A stretch of DNA of 28,914 bases from a virus. The DNA lies in IMG/VR virus record IMGVR_UViG_3300028394_000251, positions 1-28,914 of that record. One strand, given 5' to 3'. The position numbers and the translations under genes are program-made. The notes beneath the pieces were generated by a model. That model worked only from the letters and a program-made list of their open reading frames with translations. It was not told where the DNA came from and ran no database searches. This document shows positions 2,669-18,181 of the stretch, one piece after another. Positions within the stretch are counted from its first letter, which is position 1, and every line of letters begins with the position of its first letter.

Positions 2669-3057
2669 GCGTCCTCCGTCATAGCCACGAACCGCCCGGG
2701 GTCTGGCGGAAGGTGCGGCGGATTCGTGCCGGAGATCCCGTTCGCCCACAGCATGCGCCACACGCCGCTTCCGTTGTCCTGCGCCACCTGAACGGCGCAC
2801 TTCGCCAGCCGGTCATACATGTTCGGCTCAAAGTCCACCAGAATGCGAAGGTCGCGCGCGCGCGCGGCTCTGAATACATTCTGAAAGTCCTGCGAGTCGA
2901 AGGCCGGCTTCAGGCCGGCGTCCATGACGTACGAATCGAAGGCCAGCCGCGGGTCGGTGATGCCGATGAATTTGTAGTGCGAGCAAACGTCCTCGATCGG
3001 CATCTCTTGGACGATTTGCGAGAACCGCGCCGCAATCTTCTTTTTGCCGCCGCTCAT
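2665..3057 (-). CDS. Hypothetical protein in packaging operon
   Basis: 130 residues, not recognised. A Lys-rich start (SGGKKKIAARFSQIVQ) is followed by a mixed alpha/beta region (RDLRILVDFEP; MYDRLAKCAVQVAQDNG) and a Pro-rich end (GTNPPHLPPDP). No signal peptide, membrane segment or metal-binding cluster is visible. ATG at 3057 shares its A with the stop of the lysin gene (TGATG), and the gene ends in a GTGA overlap with the ParB-DUF4417 gene, so it is translationally coupled on both sides. An upstream in-frame start would lie deep inside the lysin gene and is rejected. Confidence 0.75.
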   Translation of the reverse strand: MSGGKKKIAARFSQIVQEMPIEDVCSHYKFIGITDPRLAFDSYVMDAGLKPAFDSQDFQNVFRAARARDLRILVDFEPNMYDRLAKCAVQVAQDNGSGVWRMLWANGISGTNPPHLPPDPGRFVAMTEDA

Positions 3058-4685
3058 CACGCGCGCCTGCCTTGCCAAAAGTCTGTCAGGATGCCGAGAT
3101 AGCGCGCGACGTTGTATCCCTGCCAATTGGAGTGGCTACCCAATTGGAAGATGCACGCGCCGTCAAGCACAACAGGAAGGCTGCGTCGATACTCCAGCCA
3201 CCACGAGCACCAGCGCGCAAACTGATCGTCGGAGTAGCCAGCCCATGGGAAACCACCTGCGCCAGCTTCGACGCCAGTTTCGCCGCTTGTGTGGATCACG
3301 CGCTTGTCGCCTCCGCACTGTATCCAGAAAGATGAATCGCGTCCTTCGAACCATTTCGGATCATATGGCGTGTGTTTGTCAAAATGTCCGGGATGATCTA
3401 AAAACCGCTTGTATCGCGTATACAGGTGCCAGCCAATTTTTATTCGGCCTGTGTTCTGCACTGCGAAAGCGTAGTACGTTTCTTTGAACGCCTGCACGAT
3501 CTCTGGAGTTTCGGTGTCCGGCGTGCCGTGGCTGAACTCTCCAATGACGATTTTGCGCGACGGGTTCTTCGCCCACACGTTCTGCGCGAACGCCTTCTCG
3601 TACTCGAACCGCCGCCTCATCTCGTCAGGCGAGCCATATCCGATCCAGTCTCCCTCGTTTGCGCAGGTCGTCCACATGTTGCCTGGTATGTCTTTCAGCT
3701 CAGAGCCTGCGTGATCAGCCAGGAATTTAGGGTCAGGCGCGTTCTGAAACCAAAAGCGCGCCATGATGCGAGCATCTGGATACTGACGCGCTGCTGCGGC
3801 TGCGCCCATCAGGTTATCCATGAATAGCACGCTGCGACAGCCTCGCGCGAGTGCATCCATGCCTGCGTTGCCATCGTTCAGGCAGTTCACACCGAGCAGG
3901 TACTTGGCGTGCTTCCAATCGCTCACTGGCGGCACAACAGGCTGTGGAACGACGGGCTGTGGAACTACTGGCGTCGTCGTCGTGATCCACTGCCATCCAT
4001 CAGCGCGTACGTAGCCATCTCCGACACGGACATTGCCAGCAGTGACGCTAATACGCCCCCACTGCATCTTGTCGAGTCCCTGAACCATTGACAACACCTC
4101 GAACTCTGCGCCTGATTGCAGCACATATCCAGTTGCGGTGGAGGATGAAACACCAGGTGCCGATCTCACGTTCCACGAGCTGCTGCCTATTCGAGCGCGT
4201 CCCGATGTCTGTGGCATAGATGATTCTCCTTTCAACGTAACTCTGCATGGTGTGATGGACGACCAGCGCTGCGTGTTGCGTTCCGCATTGTCCAGCACAT
4301 ATTTGCTGCTCGTCATATTCGCGCCACCGTTACCATGGAACAGCGGGTCGTGATACGTGGTGTCTGACAGACGAACGATCCAATGCCCGAAGTCTCCGTT
4401 TGCCTGGTAGCGATGCTGCAAACTCCGGTAGTCCACCAGGGCGATATACGGGTATTCAGCGCTGGTCGTCGTGCGCAGCTGGATACCGACGTAATCACCC
4501 ATCGCAAGCAAATCGCGCTGCGTGGTGCCATCCTGTGGCGGATCAAAGCGCATCGATAGCTCAGTCACAGTTGCGCCGTTGGCTATTTCTGGCTTCGACG
4601 ATCCGCACAGCATCGCGATACACGCAGGCCCGCAGTCATTACCGCGCGGAGCGTTGTCGAGCTGATTGACATAGGGCACGTTCAT
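3057..4685 (-). CDS. Modular lysin: C39-like peptidase, SH3 and glycosidase-like domains
   Basis: 542 residues in three modules. Residues 1-150 form a C39/papain-like cysteine peptidase: VPYVNQLDN opening, Cys18 in NDCGPAC, His101 in GHWIVRL and Asp113 in YHDPLF give a complete triad. Residues about 160-235 resemble a bacterial SH3 wall-binding domain (WNVRSAPGV; GYVRADGWQW). A PVVPQPVVPQPVVPP linker leads to a C-terminal region of about 285 residues with a TIM-barrel glycosidase pattern, including two candidate catalytic glutamates in CANEGDW and GEFSHG. It probably cleaves host peptidoglycan at both peptide and sugar bonds. No signal peptide, so export would need the holin-like proteins encoded upstream. 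ATG at 4685 has AGGAGG 7 nt before it and an ATGA overlap with the methylase. A virion-associated wall hydrolase is the alternative. Confidence 0.85.
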   Translation of the reverse strand: MNVPYVNQLDNAPRGNDCGPACIAMLCGSSKPEIANGATVTELSMRFDPPQDGTTQRDLLAMGDYVGIQLRTTTSAEYPYIALVDYRSLQHRYQANGDFGHWIVRLSDTTYHDPLFHGNGGANMTSSKYVLDNAERNTQRWSSITPCRVTLKGESSMPQTSGRARIGSSSWNVRSAPGVSSSTATGYVLQSGAEFEVLSMVQGLDKMQWGRISVTAGNVRVGDGYVRADGWQWITTTTPVVPQPVVPQPVVPPVSDWKHAKYLLGVNCLNDGNAGMDALARGCRSVLFMDNLMGAAAAARQYPDARIMARFWFQNAPDPKFLADHAGSELKDIPGNMWTTCANEGDWIGYGSPDEMRRRFEYEKAFAQNVWAKNPSRKIVIGEFSHGTPDTETPEIVQAFKETYYAFAVQNTGRIKIGWHLYTRYKRFLDHPGHFDKHTPYDPKWFEGRDSSFWIQCGGDKRVIHTSGETGVEAGAGGFPWAGYSDDQFARWCSWWLEYRRSLPVVLDGACIFQLGSHSNWQGYNVARYLGILTDFWQGRRA

Positions 4686-5968
4686 ACAAATGCCTCCTGC
4701 GTAGCGCGCTCTCGCGTCCAATGCTCCAGCCGCGCGCGTGCGATTCGCGCGTAGTCAGCTTCGCGCTCCACGCCGACGACGGTGTGCCATCCTGCGAGCG
4801 CGGCTCCGATGCACTCCGATCCACTGCCAGCGAATGGAACGAGGATCCTCGATTCGACGTGCTGAGGTGGAAGAATCAGCGCTGCGAGATATTGCGTGAG
4901 CGCGAGAGGCTTTACCGTCGGATGGTAATTGGCCCTTGGGATTGTCGGAGGCAGCCCAGCCTCAGCGCGCTTCCGGGAGCCTTCTCCGTATTGATTCCCG
5001 GGCTTCGTTGAGTCACGACCGCTCGTCTCGTCAACGTTACCGACACTAGCGACGCGAACCTCAAATCCATCCATCCCCTCTTCTCTCTCGCGCTTCCCAG
5101 CCTTCGCGCAGTAGAAGAATCGCGCGGCGTCTCCGAGGACTTCCGCCGTCTCATCGCTGCCGTCGTAGATGATGTTCGCTGGCCAGCGGCCAAGTAATTC
5201 TAAAGGGTGATATGTATTCCCGCCGACGCGACTTTCCTTGCCAATTGATACACTCTGAATTGCTTTTCCGTTTGCGCGGGAATTCGCAAAACCAGTAGCA
5301 GCAGCAGCAGCATCAGCATCAGCCTTATTTGCCCAGCTCACCCTCGCCCCGTCGATGTTCAAAGCGCCAGTGCCGTGCTCCAACGCATTCTGCGCCACGG
5401 TGCCTTCGAGCGGGTTCCTCGCGACGATGACAGGCTCCCACGCAGGCTTCAGCGCTGTGCCGTAGCCCTGCCATGCGCGAGCAGCGTCTGTAGCAGGCTC
5501 TCCCCCAGCTACCTCATGGTACCCGAGCAGTCTCGACTTCTCGATCCACGGATATGAAACCATATTGCCCGAAAAAGTGCCGGATTTTTCTGCTCTCGGC
5601 TTCATCCGTATTGTTTCCCGTTCCGCCCCAGCCTCTCGGTCAATCGCCTTGCTCACGTCGTGAGACTTCGGGAATCCTGTGCCGTAGAGCCACCCGAGCG
5701 TATCGCGAATTTCGAAGCCTGCGTCCTCGATGGCTACCGCGATCCTGTGGAAAGTCCTGGTGCCACCGAACGCCAGCAGATGCGCGCCGGGTGCGAGGAG
5801 CGATCGAATTGCAAGCCACGTCTCAGCGCGAAACGACACGCCGCGCGAATCCCACGACTTGTTCATGAACCCCAGCTCATACGGAGGATCGCAGAGCACG
5901 GCGTGAAATTTCGGCCCGTGATAGTGCGCTGCGAAGCGCATGATGTCGCCGTTCACGATTCGATGCAT
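4682..5968 (-). CDS. DNA adenine-N6 or cytosine-N4 methyltransferase, beta class
   Basis: 428 residues; transfers a methyl group from S-adenosylmethionine to an exocyclic amino group in DNA. Motif IV (DPPYELGFMNKSWD) is near the N-terminus and the SAM-binding motif I (PFAGSGSECIGAALAGW) near the C-terminus, the order that defines the beta class. HPTVKP, typical of the class, precedes motif I. The middle (about residues 150-330) would hold the target recognition domain. DPPY fits either N6A or N4C. No restriction enzyme is nearby, so it looks like an orphan protective methylase. It sits between the holin-like genes and the lysin, starting at a TGATG junction with AAGGA upstream. Confidence 0.92.
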   Translation of the reverse strand: MHRIVNGDIMRFAAHYHGPKFHAVLCDPPYELGFMNKSWDSRGVSFRAETWLAIRSLLAPGAHLLAFGGTRTFHRIAVAIEDAGFEIRDTLGWLYGTGFPKSHDVSKAIDREAGAERETIRMKPRAEKSGTFSGNMVSYPWIEKSRLLGYHEVAGGEPATDAARAWQGYGTALKPAWEPVIVARNPLEGTVAQNALEHGTGALNIDGARVSWANKADADAAAAATGFANSRANGKAIQSVSIGKESRVGGNTYHPLELLGRWPANIIYDGSDETAEVLGDAARFFYCAKAGKREREEGMDGFEVRVASVGNVDETSGRDSTKPGNQYGEGSRKRAEAGLPPTIPRANYHPTVKPLALTQYLAALILPPQHVESRILVPFAGSGSECIGAALAGWHTVVGVEREADYARIARARLEHWTRERATQEAFV

Positions 5969-6198
5969 CAGTCGTCCTTCCGTAGACGATCGATTTCGCG
6001 CACGAGAGAGTCGAGCTGGCTGGAAATGCGCATGATTGTTTGCGACAGGTCGTCCAGCTTCGCCAGCACTTTTTCTTCGCGCGCCATCAGTCGCTCCTCA
6101 CGCTTGTTGCTCGTGATGAGCGTGTACATGAGCAGCGTGGCGAACATCGCAGGGATGCCGCCATTCGTCAAAAGCTGAATGATGGAAGGATCACCCAT
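5968..6198 (-). CDS. BhlA/UviB-like holin-associated membrane protein
   Basis: 76 residues. One N-terminal membrane segment (GIPAMFATLLMYTLITS, about residues 11-27) is followed by a charged coiled coil (KREERLMAREEKVLAKLDDL then SQLDSLVREIDRLRKDD). This matches the BhlA/UviB type of small phage membrane proteins linked to holin activity. The start at 6198 gives an 8-nt overlap (ATGGGTGA) with the preceding membrane gene; a longer form from 6225 is possible. It would act in the host inner membrane, probably with the neighbouring 99-residue protein, to release the lysin. Confidence 0.8.
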   Translation of the reverse strand: MGDPSIIQLLTNGGIPAMFATLLMYTLITSNKREERLMAREEKVLAKLDDLSQTIMRISSQLDSLVREIDRLRKDD

Positions 6199-6490
6199 TA
6201 TTGACCAGCTCTTTTGCTGAACCATGCGTAATCTGCTGGATCAGAATTGATACACCGGTGATGACGATCTGGATGTAAGGAGAATATGCTTGCAGCGCTT
6301 CCGGGTGTGCGCTGAACGAATCATGCGCTGCCATCGCACATACTGCGATCAGGATAGCGATCGTCATTGCAATCGACTGCTTGCCATTTGGCGAAAGATT
6401 CTGGAAGCCTGAAAGGCGCTCCAGCACGAATGCAGATACCACACTAACGCCAGCTCCACTCAGCCACACCAGAATTCCGATAATGTCCAT
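6191..6490 (-). CDS. Holin-like membrane protein
   Basis: 99 residues with three hydrophobic stretches: about 3-24 (IIGILVWLSGAGVSVVSAFV), 40-56 (IAMTIAILIAVCAMAA) and 73-88 (IQIVITGVSILIQQIT). Short polar loops and a charged C-terminus fit a phage holin. It is the first gene of the leftward lysis-packaging operon, with GGAGGGG just before ATG 6490, and overlaps the BhlA-like gene by 8 nt. The exact holin family is not recognised. Confidence 0.75.
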   Translation of the reverse strand: MDIIGILVWLSGAGVSVVSAFVLERLSGFQNLSPNGKQSIAMTIAILIAVCAMAAHDSFSAHPEALQAYSPYIQIVITGVSILIQQITHGSAKELVNNG

Positions 6491-12759: not shown

Positions 12760-13002
12760 ATGACAAGGGAACAGGCAAACACCAAGGCAGCTGCACTGGC
12801 CAGCGCGTATGCGCACCGCGACATTACGTGGGCGGAGTTGCGCGAAGGGCTGCTCGCCATCTACGGCGAGATTCGATTTTCCCGCGTGATGCTGACGCGA
12901 TGTGGGGTCAGCGCCACCGAAGCAGAGCGCATCCGTGCGCAGCAGTATCAGCTCGCGCGCGACCAGCACTGGGACACGATCCCCGTGCAGGAGCCAGCAT
13001 GA
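12760..13002 (+). CDS. Hypothetical early protein, leaderless
   Basis: 80 residues, first gene of the rightward early operon; family not recognised. It looks wholly helical: AAALASAYAHRDITWAELRE, GLLAIYGEIRFSRVML, then VSATEAERIRAQQYQLARD, with a mild resemblance to a winged or HTH fold (ITWAELREGL). The start codon coincides with the predicted transcription start and has no RBS, so translation should be leaderless. As the first early product it may be a regulator or a host-takeover protein, but nothing in the sequence proves this. It overlaps the next gene by ATGA. Confidence 0.8.
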   Translation: MTREQANTKAAALASAYAHRDITWAELREGLLAIYGEIRFSRVMLTRCGVSATEAERIRAQQYQLARDQHWDTIPVQEPA

Positions 13003-14195: not shown

Positions 14196-14206
14196 ACATG
14201 CCATCA

Positions 14207-14229
14207 GCCCGGCGTCGCACTCGCCGGGC
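14207..14229 (+). promoter_or_regulatory. Intercistronic hairpin A, loop TCGCACT
   Basis: Perfect 8-bp stem GCCCGGCG/CGCCGGGC with 7-nt loop TCGCACT, ending 4 nt before the GGAG of the gene at 14245. No U-tract follows, so it is not an intrinsic terminator. Its loop is the exact reverse complement of the loop of hairpin B. Confidence 0.75.
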
Positions 14230-14244
14230 ACCTGGAGAACACAA

Positions 14245-14478
14245 ATGGAAATCACAACTAACGAAGACAAGCCGGTCATGCGCAGCTACCATCCCGAGGA
14301 TCACGCCGACAACGAGTCGGCGCTCCGTGCCATGCTGCATGTCATCGTCGGAGTGGCGATGCAGGAGCGTCTCGGCATTCCGCTGAGCGCTGCGCAACGC
14401 GAAGACCTGAAAGGCATTGCGCGTGACATGGCTCCGTGGACGCAGACCAGCAACATGCTTACTGATCTAGCGCGGTGA
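14245..14478 (+). CDS. Hypothetical protein
   Basis: 77 residues, not recognised. The first 25 are polar (TTNEDKPVMRSYHPEDHADN); the remainder is a run of helices (SALRAMLHVIVGVAMQERLG, AQREDLKGIARDMA). No cysteine clusters or membrane segment. GGAG precedes ATG 14245 by 7 nt, right after a strong hairpin, and a second such hairpin follows the gene. Confidence 0.7.
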   Translation: MEITTNEDKPVMRSYHPEDHADNESALRAMLHVIVGVAMQERLGIPLSAAQREDLKGIARDMAPWTQTSNMLTDLAR

Positions 14479-14504: not shown

Positions 14505-14527
14505 GCCCTGCGAGTGCGACGCAGGGC
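14505..14527 (+). promoter_or_regulatory. Intercistronic hairpin B, loop AGTGCGA
   Basis: Perfect 8-bp stem GCCCTGCG/CGCAGGGC with 7-nt loop AGTGCGA, ending 5 nt before the GGAG of the gene at 14541. No U-tract follows. Same stem length, loop length and distance to the RBS as hairpin A, with a complementary loop. Confidence 0.75.
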
Positions 14528-14540
14528 ATTCAGGAGACAC

Positions 14541-14903
14541 ATGAAAATCTACACGATCCAGAACACCGAAAGCGGAGTCGCGTATCCCGGAGCAGGTAAG
14601 CTCTGGATCACGGAAGATGCCGCCATCGATTGGCTTATGCGCTTCTTCGTTGAGCAGCGCGGACAGTCAGGTCTTTCACGCGATCAGTTCGTGGCTGCGA
14701 TGCGCGCAGGCGTCACGTATGAATACACGCAGCCGCTCGACCTGGTGGACGACATCAGCGCAAACGCGATTCCAGAATTGCTGTACGTGCGAATTGACTG
14801 GGTGTGGGGAGACGCTGAAACAGACAGCGCCTTCTACACTGCGGTCAGTGCGCAGGTATTGCCCGATGAAATGCACCGCGATGAGTGGACGGTGCAGCAG
14901 TGA
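14541..14903 (+). CDS. Hypothetical protein
   Basis: 120 residues, not recognised. Begins MKIYTIQNTESGVAYPGAG, a beta-rich start, followed by a helical middle (EDAAIDWLMRFFVEQRGQSG; SRDQFVAAMRAGV) and an acidic, aromatic end (YVRIDWVWGDAETDSAFYTA). GGAG 4 nt before ATG 14541 decides the start; the frame is open further upstream through the hairpin but without an RBS. It overlaps the nuclease gene by GTGA. Confidence 0.75.
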   Translation: MKIYTIQNTESGVAYPGAGKLWITEDAAIDWLMRFFVEQRGQSGLSRDQFVAAMRAGVTYEYTQPLDLVDDISANAIPELLYVRIDWVWGDAETDSAFYTAVSAQVLPDEMHRDEWTVQQ

Positions 14904-15796: not shown

Positions 15797-16016
15797 TTCA
15801 CTGGCCGACGAAATCAGAAACATCGCAAAACACACAAACCGAGATACGGTTGAAACGCTTCGGGCGAAGCTCCAGCAGATCGAGGCGATCGACAACGACG
15901 AACGTCTGCGCTACCAGGTGGATGCAGATACTCGCAGCGTGCTCGTGCGATCGCAGGCGCATCTGCGCACGCGCATCTATCGCGTGATCATCAATGCGCG
16001 CGGTGAATGGTGGTAG
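15786..16016 (+). CDS. Hypothetical helical protein
   Basis: 76 residues, not recognised. Two amphipathic helices are evident (LADEIRNIAKHTNRDTVETL; RAKLQQIEAIDNDERLRY), then a basic end (HLRTRIYRVIINARGEWW). ATG 15786 has AAGGGG about 8 nt upstream and overlaps the nuclease gene by 11 nt. Confidence 0.65.
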   Translation: MKNNSLADEIRNIAKHTNRDTVETLRAKLQQIEAIDNDERLRYQVDADTRSVLVRSQAHLRTRIYRVIINARGEWW

Positions 16017-16255
16017 ACATTGCAGACCTGGAAATTTATTTCGAAAAAATGAAAAGGGCGTTTGGCGCGCCACCGACAGATGAGCCAGTGCCGACGCACT
16101 ATCACCAGGCATGGTATCGCGCTACATACGGCGAGTACATCCCGCAGTGGTGCGTAGTATGCAAAAAAGATTTTGTTGCGCTGGATCAAAATTTGACGTG
16201 CAGCAAACATTGCGCTGATCAGCGCGCATTGATTTACCGGAAACAAAAAAAATGA
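16007..16255 (+). CDS. Small protein with one zinc ribbon
   Basis: 82 residues. The C-terminal half holds CVVCKKDF, ten intervening residues, then TCSKHC: the same C-x2-C-x3-F...CS-x2-C ribbon repeated in the large protein at 8391-9758 and in the 44-residue protein. The N-terminus is helical (IADLEIYFEKMKRAFG), followed by an aromatic segment (HYHQAWYRATYGEYIPQW). It probably binds zinc and perhaps nucleic acid or a partner protein. It overlaps the neighbours on both sides. Confidence 0.75.
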   Translation: MVVDIADLEIYFEKMKRAFGAPPTDEPVPTHYHQAWYRATYGEYIPQWCVVCKKDFVALDQNLTCSKHCADQRALIYRKQKK

Positions 16256-16332
16256 AATTACATCATGCCCTCATCCTGTCAGTCATCGCCTGGTGCTGTA
16301 TCGCATGGGCGATCATCGCGGTGCTGCGATGA
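16252..16332 (+). CDS. 26-residue single-pass membrane protein
   Basis: A very short gene, MKLHHALILSVIAWCCIAWA followed by IIAVLR, that is almost all one membrane helix with a basic end on each side. Its ATG overlaps the previous stop as ATGA and its TGA overlaps the next ATG as ATGA, so it is coupled to both neighbours. That arrangement and the uniform hydrophobicity support expression. Function unknown; tiny phage membrane proteins often modulate lysis or superinfection. Confidence 0.65.
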   Translation: MKLHHALILSVIAWCCIAWAIIAVLR

Positions 16333-16568
16333 CCGACGAAAATGAATACGCGGTCGTCAGCTACGATCCGCTCAAAATCATGTCCACATACCACAGCGTG
16401 ATCACCGCGATGCGTGTGGCAGCGCGCAGATACCACACGCAGTCCTGCGGTGTCATGCGCGTGCTGCGTGACGACATGGGCTACGCCCTGGGCGTCATCG
16501 AGCTTACGTCGGCTGAGCAGCGGGAGATTTTGTCTGCGACTGATGAGATTGTGCAGATCATCGACTAA
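16329..16568 (+). CDS. Hypothetical protein
   Basis: 79 residues, not recognised. An acidic start (TDENEYAVVSYDP) is followed by a helix with several His and Arg (HSVITAMRVAARRYHTQSCG) and an acidic helical end (SAEQREILSATDEIVQIID). The start is fixed by the ATGA overlap with the 26-residue gene. A TATAAT lies just after its stop. Confidence 0.65.
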   Translation: MTDENEYAVVSYDPLKIMSTYHSVITAMRVAARRYHTQSCGVMRVLRDDMGYALGVIELTSAEQREILSATDEIVQIID

Positions 16569-16576
16569 GGTATAAT
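16549..16576 (+). promoter_or_regulatory. Promoter candidate for the structured RNA
   Basis: Perfect -10 TATAAT at 16571-16576, immediately after a stop codon. The best -35 is TTGTGC (16549-16554, three of six), spacer 16 bp. The -10 is convincing and the -35 weak; activation by a regulator is possible. Confidence 0.5.
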
Positions 16577-16582
16577 GCGCGC

Positions 16583-16655
16583 GTGGGCCAGTCCCCGAAT
16601 TAAAAACACGGGCGTTCAGCTGCTGCATATCGACTGGGATATGCAGCTTTTTTTT
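16583..16655 (+). ncRNA. Candidate 73-nt structured RNA or attenuator leader
   Basis: Runs from the expected start of the TATAAT promoter to the end of a strong terminator. Elements in order: CCAGUC (16588-16593), a CCCG/CGGG stem (16594-16597 with 16609-16612) closing an A-rich 11-nt loop, then a 10-bp terminator stem. The terminator loop GACUGG (16632-16637) is exactly complementary to CCAGUC, so a long-range pseudoknot can form. The U-tract ends 5 nt before the ATG of a secreted protein, so the element is either a free small RNA or a leader that controls read-through into that gene. I do not recognise a known RNA family. Confidence 0.55.
16622..16655 (+). terminator. Strong rho-independent terminator
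   Basis: Stem GCTGCATATC/GATATGCAGC (16622-16631 and 16638-16647), 10 perfect pairs with loop GACTGG, followed by eight Ts (16648-16655). Confidence 0.93.
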
Positions 16656-16660
16656 GCCTC

Positions 16661-17026
16661 ATGATCATCACGACCGTCATCACCCTGGTGCTCAGCATCA
16701 GCGCCTACACACCAGGTGCCAACGCGATCAGCGGAGGCTCTGTCATGGCCGACGGACGCGCGCCACATATAGGCGCGTACGCGTGTCCTAGGGCGATCCC
16801 CCTGGGATGGCGCGTAATCCTGCATGGTGCAGCGCAGGCGCGCGCTATGGCGCTGGGGCTGCCATATACGGGCATATGCGCGGACAGGCTGGCTGCGCGC
16901 TACCAGGTCGGTCACCTCGACATATGCCTACCACGCGGATATGCGCGCATGACGGACGCGCAGCGCCTGCGCCTGGCGTATCGGTGGGGGCGGATCAGTG
17001 GAGTCGTGGCATTCAGCGCGCCATGA
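16661..17026 (+). CDS. Secreted 3D/RlpA-like small protein
   Basis: 121 residues. An N-terminal hydrophobic stretch (IITTVITLVLSISAYTPGAN) looks like a signal peptide with a possible cut near residue 22. The mature part resembles the 3D/double-psi barrel family: HIGAYACPRAIPLGWRVILH, then CADRLAARYQVGHLDICLPR with the conserved Asp-x-Cys, and an AYRWGRI end. Such domains occur in cell-wall binding or cleaving proteins. The ATG follows a terminator U-tract by 5 nt and has no Shine-Dalgarno, so expression probably needs read-through. Alternatively it could be translated from an unseen promoter with a non-canonical start. Family assignment is moderate. Confidence 0.65.
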   Translation: MIITTVITLVLSISAYTPGANAISGGSVMADGRAPHIGAYACPRAIPLGWRVILHGAAQARAMALGLPYTGICADRLAARYQVGHLDICLPRGYARMTDAQRLRLAYRWGRISGVVAFSAP

Positions 17027-17074: not shown

Positions 17075-17076
17075 CA

Positions 17077-17103
17077 TTAAGTCGATAGCAGTAGTGCTAT
17101 ACT
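17077..17103 (+). promoter_or_regulatory. Extended -10 promoter for 17138-17568 genes
   Basis: TGC (17095-17097) directly precedes TATACT (17098-17103, five of six). No good -35 is present (TTAAGT at 17077 is poor), which fits an extended -10 promoter or one needing an activator at the upstream operators. The GGA-rich RBS follows at 17120-17131. Confidence 0.6.
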
Positions 17104-17137
17104 TCAATGGTCAGCCAGAAAGGAAAAAAGGAAAATC

Positions 17138-17365: not shown

Positions 17366-17568
17366 GCCTCATCAACTCGGTGTGGATCAGGATCGGACGC
17401 GCAGACGTAGCGCGTCACCAGGGTGATCATGCCCTGATGGATCAGGAGCTCGACGCAGCGCGAGAGTTGCTGACCTGCGTCGACATGACGCGCTGCGTCA
17501 ACCGCGACTTCGTCGATTACGTCAATCGTTTTTTGGCGCGGTACGTGGCGCGCCACCAGGAAGCCTAG
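17362..17568 (+). CDS. Hypothetical protein
   Basis: 68 residues, not recognised. Mostly helical with many Arg, Asp and His (RIGRADVARHQGDHALMDQE; LDAARELL), two cysteines in TCVDMTRC, and a C-terminal helix (FVDYVNRFLARYVARHQEA). GGAGGT 6 nt before ATG 17362. It ends just before a terminator. Confidence 0.7.
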   Translation: MSLINSVWIRIGRADVARHQGDHALMDQELDAARELLTCVDMTRCVNRDFVDYVNRFLARYVARHQEA

Positions 17569-17571
17569 TGC

Positions 17572-17608
17572 CAGCAGCCCGCTCAATCGAGTGGGCTGTT
17601 TGCTTTTT
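17572..17608 (+). terminator. Rho-independent terminator, copy 1 of a 36-bp repeat
   Basis: Stem AGCCCGCTC/GAGTGGGCT (17576-17584 and 17589-17597, one G-U pair), loop AATC, tail GTTTGCTTTTT. Nearly identical to the terminator at 18146-18181. Confidence 0.93.
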
Positions 17609-17618
17609 CAAAAAAATC

Positions 17619-18125
17619 ATGAACACGCACACACACATCAGCATCCTAACGCATAAGCGCAGCATGACTACTCTCATGCGTAATGGATTGTTCGTCGATA
17701 TCCCGGTGCTGGGCACCACCGATGATGCGCACGTGATGGCGATCATCACACGCGAAATTGCCTGCGCAGTGCTCAGCGGTGACCTCACCGCCACTACCGA
17801 GGACGGAAAGATCGTCACCATCGCGTATCGCGTCAACGCGGAATCCCAGCTGCGACGCTATGCGGTCGTCGAGCTGGACGTGCAGCAGCCGGATGGAAGC
17901 ATCGATGATGATGTCCTGGCACGCGGCACATACTGGATCGACGACCGAGGCAGCGATCCTGTGGTGTGGGATGCACCTCGCAAGGCAGCGCTGCTACCGC
18001 AGGTCATCCGTGAGGATGCGTCACTGATGCTGTGGTGGATGTGGCAGTACCAGCATGACGAGATGACGACTGGAGGTGGCATCTATCAGTTCCGCTGGGA
18101 CGACGCGATCGAAGCGCCGATGTAA
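17619..18125 (+). CDS. Hypothetical protein flanked by duplicate terminators (moron-like)
   Basis: About 168 residues from ATG 17619, or 153 from ATG 17664, where the conserved-looking protein begins (MTTLMRNGLFVDIPVLG). Not recognised. The body is mixed alpha/beta with acidic stretches (TATTEDGKIVTIAYRV; VVELDVQQPDGSIDDDVL) and many Trp and Met near the end (LMLWWMWQYQHDEMTTGG). No Shine-Dalgarno is evident before either start and no clear promoter was found, so control is unknown. Both sides carry the same 36-bp terminator, the arrangement of phage moron genes, which are often expressed independently of the lytic programme. Confidence 0.65.
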   Translation: MNTHTHISILTHKRSMTTLMRNGLFVDIPVLGTTDDAHVMAIITREIACAVLSGDLTATTEDGKIVTIAYRVNAESQLRRYAVVELDVQQPDGSIDDDVLARGTYWIDDRGSDPVVWDAPRKAALLPQVIREDASLMLWWMWQYQHDEMTTGGGIYQFRWDDAIEAPM

Positions 18126-18145: not shown

Positions 18146-18181
18146 CAGCAGCCCGCTCAATCGAGCGGGCTGTTTGCTTTT
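18146..18181 (+). terminator. Rho-independent terminator, copy 2 of a 36-bp repeat
   Basis: Stem AGCCCGCTC/GAGCGGGCT (18150-18158 and 18163-18171), loop AATC, tail GTTTGCTTTT. It ends rightward transcription just before the converging tail genes. It differs from copy 1 at one base in 36. Confidence 0.93.

Follow-up and report, generated by a model that had tools for sequence, protein, structure and literature searches.

What does the short segment between the ORF at 16293-16568 and the gene at 16661-17026 do? The segment lies in a virus record of 28,914 bases that is classed as linear (hereafter the window, meaning the whole stretch of DNA that was analysed), and it packs a promoter-like box, a leader and a terminator-like hairpin against a start codon. 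With a probability of about 0.5, we read 16571-16661 as a promoter-proximal-terminator gate, which by analogy would work like pR'-tR' of lambda and phage 21 or like the AlpA-controlled alpB promoter.

Sequence elements upstream of the start codon at 16661

All parts of the element lie on the plus strand. A TATAAT box (-10, 16571-16576) starts two bases past the stop codon of ORF 16293-16568 and is preceded, across a 16-bp spacer, by a weak -35-like hexamer, TTGTGC (16549-16554). Because of this weak -35, the site was unlisted by a consensus promoter scan. From the position of the -10 box, a self-terminating RNA of ~73 nt is predicted (16583-16655). It would contain CCAGUC (CCAGTC in the DNA, 16588-16593), which is complementary to the terminator loop, and a small hairpin seen in the sequence and by folding, CCCG-(11 nt)-CGGG (16594-16612, with CCCG at 16594-16597 and CGGG at 16609-16612). 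The terminator scan placed an intrinsic terminator at 16622-16655. Its 10-bp stem, GCTGCATATC/GATATGCAGC (16622-16647), has five G-C pairs and encloses the 6-nt loop GACTGG (16632-16637), and an unbroken tail of eight T's, TTTTTTTT, follows (16648-16655). Five bases separate this tail from the ATG at 16661, and an upstream Shine-Dalgarno (SD) sequence is absent. The original prediction gave TATAAT, CCAGUC, the CCCG/CGGG stem and the 10-bp terminator with correct coordinates and letters. It also rightly described the loop GACUGG as the exact reverse complement of CCAGUC, the U-tract as ending 5 nt ahead of the start codon and the gene as lacking an RBS.

Perfect TATAAT hexamers occur three times on the plus strand of the window and seven times on both strands. 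Within a scan of the 52 nt that lead up to the stem, the chance of a -10 box of such quality is p ~0.006; when the box is scored jointly with the -35, p is 0.005 if 46 nt are scanned and 0.020 if 131 nt are. The folding energy has a z-score of -2.1 relative to shuffles. Across the window, Rfam 15 gave no matches at the curated score, and its weak matches near E 1 (isrK and sX12; best of four, E 0.96) were taken as chance. A DNA search of the region among phage records gave no match.

The downstream gene and its relatives

The SD-less gene at 16661-17026 (plus) encodes a 121-aa protein, and the start at 16661 is backed by an alignment of eight homologues. None of the eight members of this protein family (8/8) matched Pfam. 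In a structure search, the AlphaFold model of the protein (mean pLDDT 78) retrieved phage 3D-domain proteins (best E 6.4e-5), followed by weaker hits to an expansin and to MltA-type lytic transglycosylases (E 0.006 to 0.06). Based on the model, the protein is predicted to have a 3D/MltA-like fold of cell-wall type. Searches against the sequences of solved structures gave nothing significant, and tblastn against phage records found no match. The description of the protein as secreted is unsupported, because the first beta strand of the predicted structure (residues 4-14) takes the position of a signal peptide.

Relatives of this 3D protein are encoded on nine viral contigs, the same nine when the eight-row alignment served as query, and none were found among genome contigs. 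On eight of the nine, the gene adjoins the upstream ORF or overlaps it, and the promoter-terminator element is absent. Two of these eight are duplicates around the gene; on the other six, the gap to the upstream ORF is -7, +2, -7, -4, -7 and -7 nt. The ninth contig (L133) has a different terminator, with a T tract ending two bases ahead of the ATG, and no good -10 box. Since most relatives are coupled to the upstream ORF, the window carries an inserted element here. The missing RBS is explained only in part, by this abutting or overlapping arrangement in relatives together with SD-less starts just past terminators, which are common in the phage group. Searches for relatives via the upstream 79-aa gene and the 168-aa gene at 17619-18125 found none, and the Erf protein led to four weak ones.

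Two features were seen beside the 3D gene. Zinc-finger-like small proteins are encoded just before or near it in the window (16007-16255), L131 (5738-6007) and L002 (3-170), and that of L131 adds a Fis-like helix-turn-helix (HTH_8, E 0.0022, below cut-off). Behind the gene, a AGCAGTNGTGCT inverted repeat lies in a promoter-like region (window 17075-17110) and is kept in the relative L002 (525-550).

Gate-like leaders and terminators across the phage group

We use the term gate for a layout recognised from sequence only: a promoter-like sequence, a leader under ~200 nt, a terminator-like hairpin and a gene on the same strand, all of which the window element has. In the records of eight relatives, found through the 3D gene, one such module is present in ten sequence-related copies in four phages, with up to three copies per phage. 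It runs in the order -10 box, A+C-rich leader, AACCGC-NNNN-GCGGC, terminator, TTTTTTGTTTTC and start codon. Type A copies precede a 760-aa protease-capsid protein (phrog_207, phrog_807) and type B copies the major tail protein (phrog_4971, 5.5e-30). Type C copies precede a 100-aa membrane-like protein, the first gene of a holin/lysin/terminase operon. The -10 hexamer begins 23-26 nt ahead of AACCGC in seven of the ten copies; in the remaining three, all type C, it is weak or lies much further upstream. The window -10 begins 23 nt ahead of the CCCG stem, and the CCGC-NNNN-GCGG of the relatives stands at a -10 distance similar to that of the window's CCCG/CGGG hairpin.

Of the nine terminator pairs predicted from the alignment of the ten copies, one shows a compensated change and eight show none. 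The predicted consensus fold leaves out the small CCGC/GCGG hairpin, which overlaps the 5' arm of the terminator. A T tract borders the stem in the relatives' copies, those with an SD included. Compared with the repeat model R1, window positions 16622-16655 scored 11.3 bits (E 4.3) at model positions 27-57, the terminator part only, and judged by sequence the window element is not a member of the relatives' repeat family. Among phage records, the repeat itself had only three weak partial matches, and the membrane-like protein behind gate C had none. One exact match to the 21-base repeat pattern, in a Loktanella MAG, was rejected, having by eye no comparable T tract or hairpin. In phage G006, a gate that differs in sequence (L162 16720, minus) precedes a gene weakly matching a protease (XkdF), and L160 carries a gate-like leader ahead of a DNA methyltransferase gene, with a membrane-protein gene further along.

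The window has an equivalent gate on its minus strand, located by sequence and scans at 6725-6574, with a strong promoter sequence, TTGACA-16-TACAAT (6725-6698), a leader of ~90 nt and a terminator at 6603-6574. The first gene past it (6191-6490, minus) encodes a 99-aa membrane-like protein with 52-64% identity (tblastn) to the membrane-like protein of the relatives, and a homologue is likewise first past the gate in L156, L158, L163 and L169. Behind it on the same strand come the gene for a BhlA-type holin (5968-6225; PF10960, 26.3 bits, cut-off 22.6) and, at a greater distance, that for a peptidase C39-like protein, a candidate lysin (3057-4721; PF03412, 23.5 bits, cut-off 22). At the lysis operon, the layout is thus kept and the leader sequence is not. 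Given this lysis-operon gate, the element at 16571-16661 would be the second gate of the phage, placed before a cell-wall-type gene. A separate observation concerns the terminator loops at 6603-6574 of the window (minus) and near 4636 of L160 (minus), both of which contain CCUCCU, the anti-Shine-Dalgarno sequence; in the window, this loop could pair with the GGAGGGG of the gene past the gate (ATG 6490).

At fixed thresholds, the window and 13 loci of relatives contain 26 strong terminators. An ATG of a frame of at least 60 codons follows within 40 nt in 16 of the 26, compared with 18% at random places, and nine of these 16 starts have no SD. A -10 box (p<0.05) is present in the 52 nt before the stem in 10 of the 26, with 1.3 expected and the window element included at 0.006, and in 12 of the 26 when 112 nt are scanned; these terminator counts are not independent, because orthologues are among the 26.

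Some further arrangements were seen in the window. Two near-identical terminators lie at 17573-17600 and 18147-18174 (plus), the former a few bases past the stop at 17568 and ending 18 bases before the SD-less ATG at 17619. Near 14200-14245 and 14505-14542 (plus), G+C-rich hairpins with no T tract immediately precede the SD of the gene that follows. The divergent genes at 12760 (plus) and 12678 (minus) have their ATG ~7 bases past a -10 box, as if leaderless.

Loop pairing, competing readings and known systems

The original prediction saw in the element the design of an attenuator, riboswitch or small RNA, with the pairing of the terminator loop to the 5' end at its centre. CCAGTC is present in 1.1% of shuffled leaders. 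Among 24 hairpins with 6-nt loops, drawn from the loci compared and counting the window twice (as the window and as L001), 0.345 loop-leader complements were expected and only the window matched. The chance of such a complement is about 1% per hairpin, before allowing for other features that a reader might notice. In each of ten other gates of the phage group, at most 2-4 consecutive nt of the loop are complementary to the leader, and none of nine related records contains a homologous RNA. Likewise, none of 20 viral contigs matching CCAGTCCCCG-CGGG-GACTGG has a hairpin around GACTGG. The pattern CCAGTC-GACTGG-T6 was found in at least 119 stretches of viral contigs. Among those listed, a filter for stems of at least six pairs left the window and two loci (stems of six and seven pairs), which appear unrelated to the window element and were set aside. 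We dropped the pseudoknot or riboswitch as the main reading, as comparative support is wanting, and the match between loop and 5' end is most likely fortuitous, or at best adds some stability to this RNA alone. The layout part of the predicted design held up, as relatives repeat promoter, leader, terminator and start before lysis, capsid and tail genes. The pairing as a working part found no support, given the 2-4 nt of the ten gates and the lack of the element at this gene in relatives.

A free phage small RNA, in which the 73-nt transcript acts in trans with its loop or 5' end as seed and the pairing keeps it closed and stable, would fit a promoter and strong terminator that bracket a short, stably folded RNA. 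The 6-bp pairing is also energetically feasible (-8.0 kcal/mol as a bare duplex). We nevertheless consider this improbable in view of the empty Rfam search, the nine related records and the viral contigs described above. Regulation in cis is very unlikely. Here, termination would be altered by the CCAGUC-loop pairing, or by a leaderless GUG GGC CAG UCC CCG AAU UAA peptide translated from the predicted +1. The exact 6-nt complement, the GTG at the predicted start site (16583) and the two leaderless-looking genes at 12760 (plus) and 12678 (minus) speak for it. Against it stand the ~1% chance of the match and its absence from the ten other gates, and, as pairing and terminator stem are not in competition, no switch is evident.

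Two readings do without the leader pairing. In one, the hairpin is a plain operon terminator that ends the upstream unit, the TATAAT is there by chance and polymerase that leaks through reads the 3D gene. This fits a stem lying 53 nt past the upstream stop codon (16568), as well as the weak -35 and other terminators between a stop and a start that lack a good -10 (L156 2142, minus; L163 9052; L167 14308, minus; L169 14048). It fits less well with the p ~0.006 for a -10 of this quality within 52 nt of the stem and with a spacing from -10 to small hairpin near that of the relatives' gates, and we regard it as unlikely, if a serious contender. In the other, the stem is a 5'-UTR hairpin that protects the mRNA, the U tract recruits the ribosome and termination is incidental. 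SD-less starts right past U tracts do recur (9/16), the protease-capsid gene included, and hairpins free of a T tract precede starts with an SD near 14200 and 14500 of the window, as well as the membrane-protein gene in L160. Yet eight T's after a 10-bp stem form a textbook terminator, and the relatives' copies keep their T tract by the stem even with an SD, which makes this reading hardly credible.

Under the gate reading, host RNA polymerase would start near 16583, make the ~73-nt RNA and halt at the intrinsic terminator, which ends five bases short of the 3D gene. Expression of the gene would then depend on a factor of phage or host, or on a changed elongation complex, that lets the polymerase through at the proper stage. 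Promoter firing, termination and antitermination are all three steps that we infer. The ten copies in relatives, the -10 spacing, the terminator statistics, the window's lysis gate, the L162 gate and the 3D/MltA-like fold argue for a gate. Arguing against it are the lack of membership in the relatives' repeats, the poor conservation at the 3D gene (eight of nine contigs without a gate), the weak -35 and the three of ten copies with a distant or weak -10. The Q-type antiterminator families PF06530 and PF03589 had no match at E<=1 in any of the nine records, most of which are possibly fragments. By eye, neither a Q-binding element between -35 and -10 nor an early pause element was recognised. 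We tentatively suggest, as a possibility on the unlikely side, that lysis, capsid and tail genes are run via several gates opened together by an antiterminator of a family not yet known. One of several candidates is the protein with a Fis-like helix-turn-helix and a zinc finger that some relatives encode next to the 3D gene (L131 5738-6007).

We recognised no description of this arrangement for this phage group in the open literature, for the terms searched. Few systems of processive antitermination at promoter-proximal terminators are known in detail. If the reading is true, several gates per genome, capsid and tail included, would offer naturally occurring targets for deducing the new antiterminator and the sequence that it recognises. 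They would be relevant, too, to the translation of SD-less genes right past a terminator U tract.

The lambda late gate pR'-tR' produces the lambda 6S RNA as its short terminated RNA. The likeness lies in a promoter and a short terminated RNA followed by lysis genes: in the phage group, the operon past gate C opens with holin/lysin-type genes and extends to the terminase. Unlike the lambdoid system, the group has several gates in one phage, some of them ahead of capsid and tail genes; its terminator is close to the start codon, and no Q family was found in the nine records. In the account of PMC6606751, Q depends on a -10-like pause element as well as on a site within the late promoter. The passages of PMC7969949 on AlpA of Pseudomonas aeruginosa describe one regulator acting at the alpB and PA0807 promoters, where intrinsic terminators directly precede the first genes; alpBCDE are lysis genes. 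By layout, as those passages give it, the gate resembles these promoters in its terminator immediately upstream of the first gene. Cluster K mycobacteriophages carry repeated intergenic SAS/ESAS elements with a promoter and an inverted repeat just before start codons. The relevant sections of PMC3203893 and PMC11373665 discuss the ESAS inverted repeats as possible regulator sites and treat the terminator as a separate feature, whereas in the phage group the inverted repeat itself carries the T tract. By analogy, the arrangement would work most like lambdoid pR'-tR' and AlpA, and as a repeated start element it most resembles SAS/ESAS; these are likenesses, not membership in any of the three systems.

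A transcript of phage HK022 begins with hairpins, the put RNAs. Two group-C leaders are similar in folding a long hairpin before the terminator; they differ in having no put sequence, and antitermination in the group is putative. These extra hairpins, between which no shared sequence was seen by eye, lie between promoter and terminator at 7060-6966 of L163 (minus) and 12170-12102 of L169 (minus).
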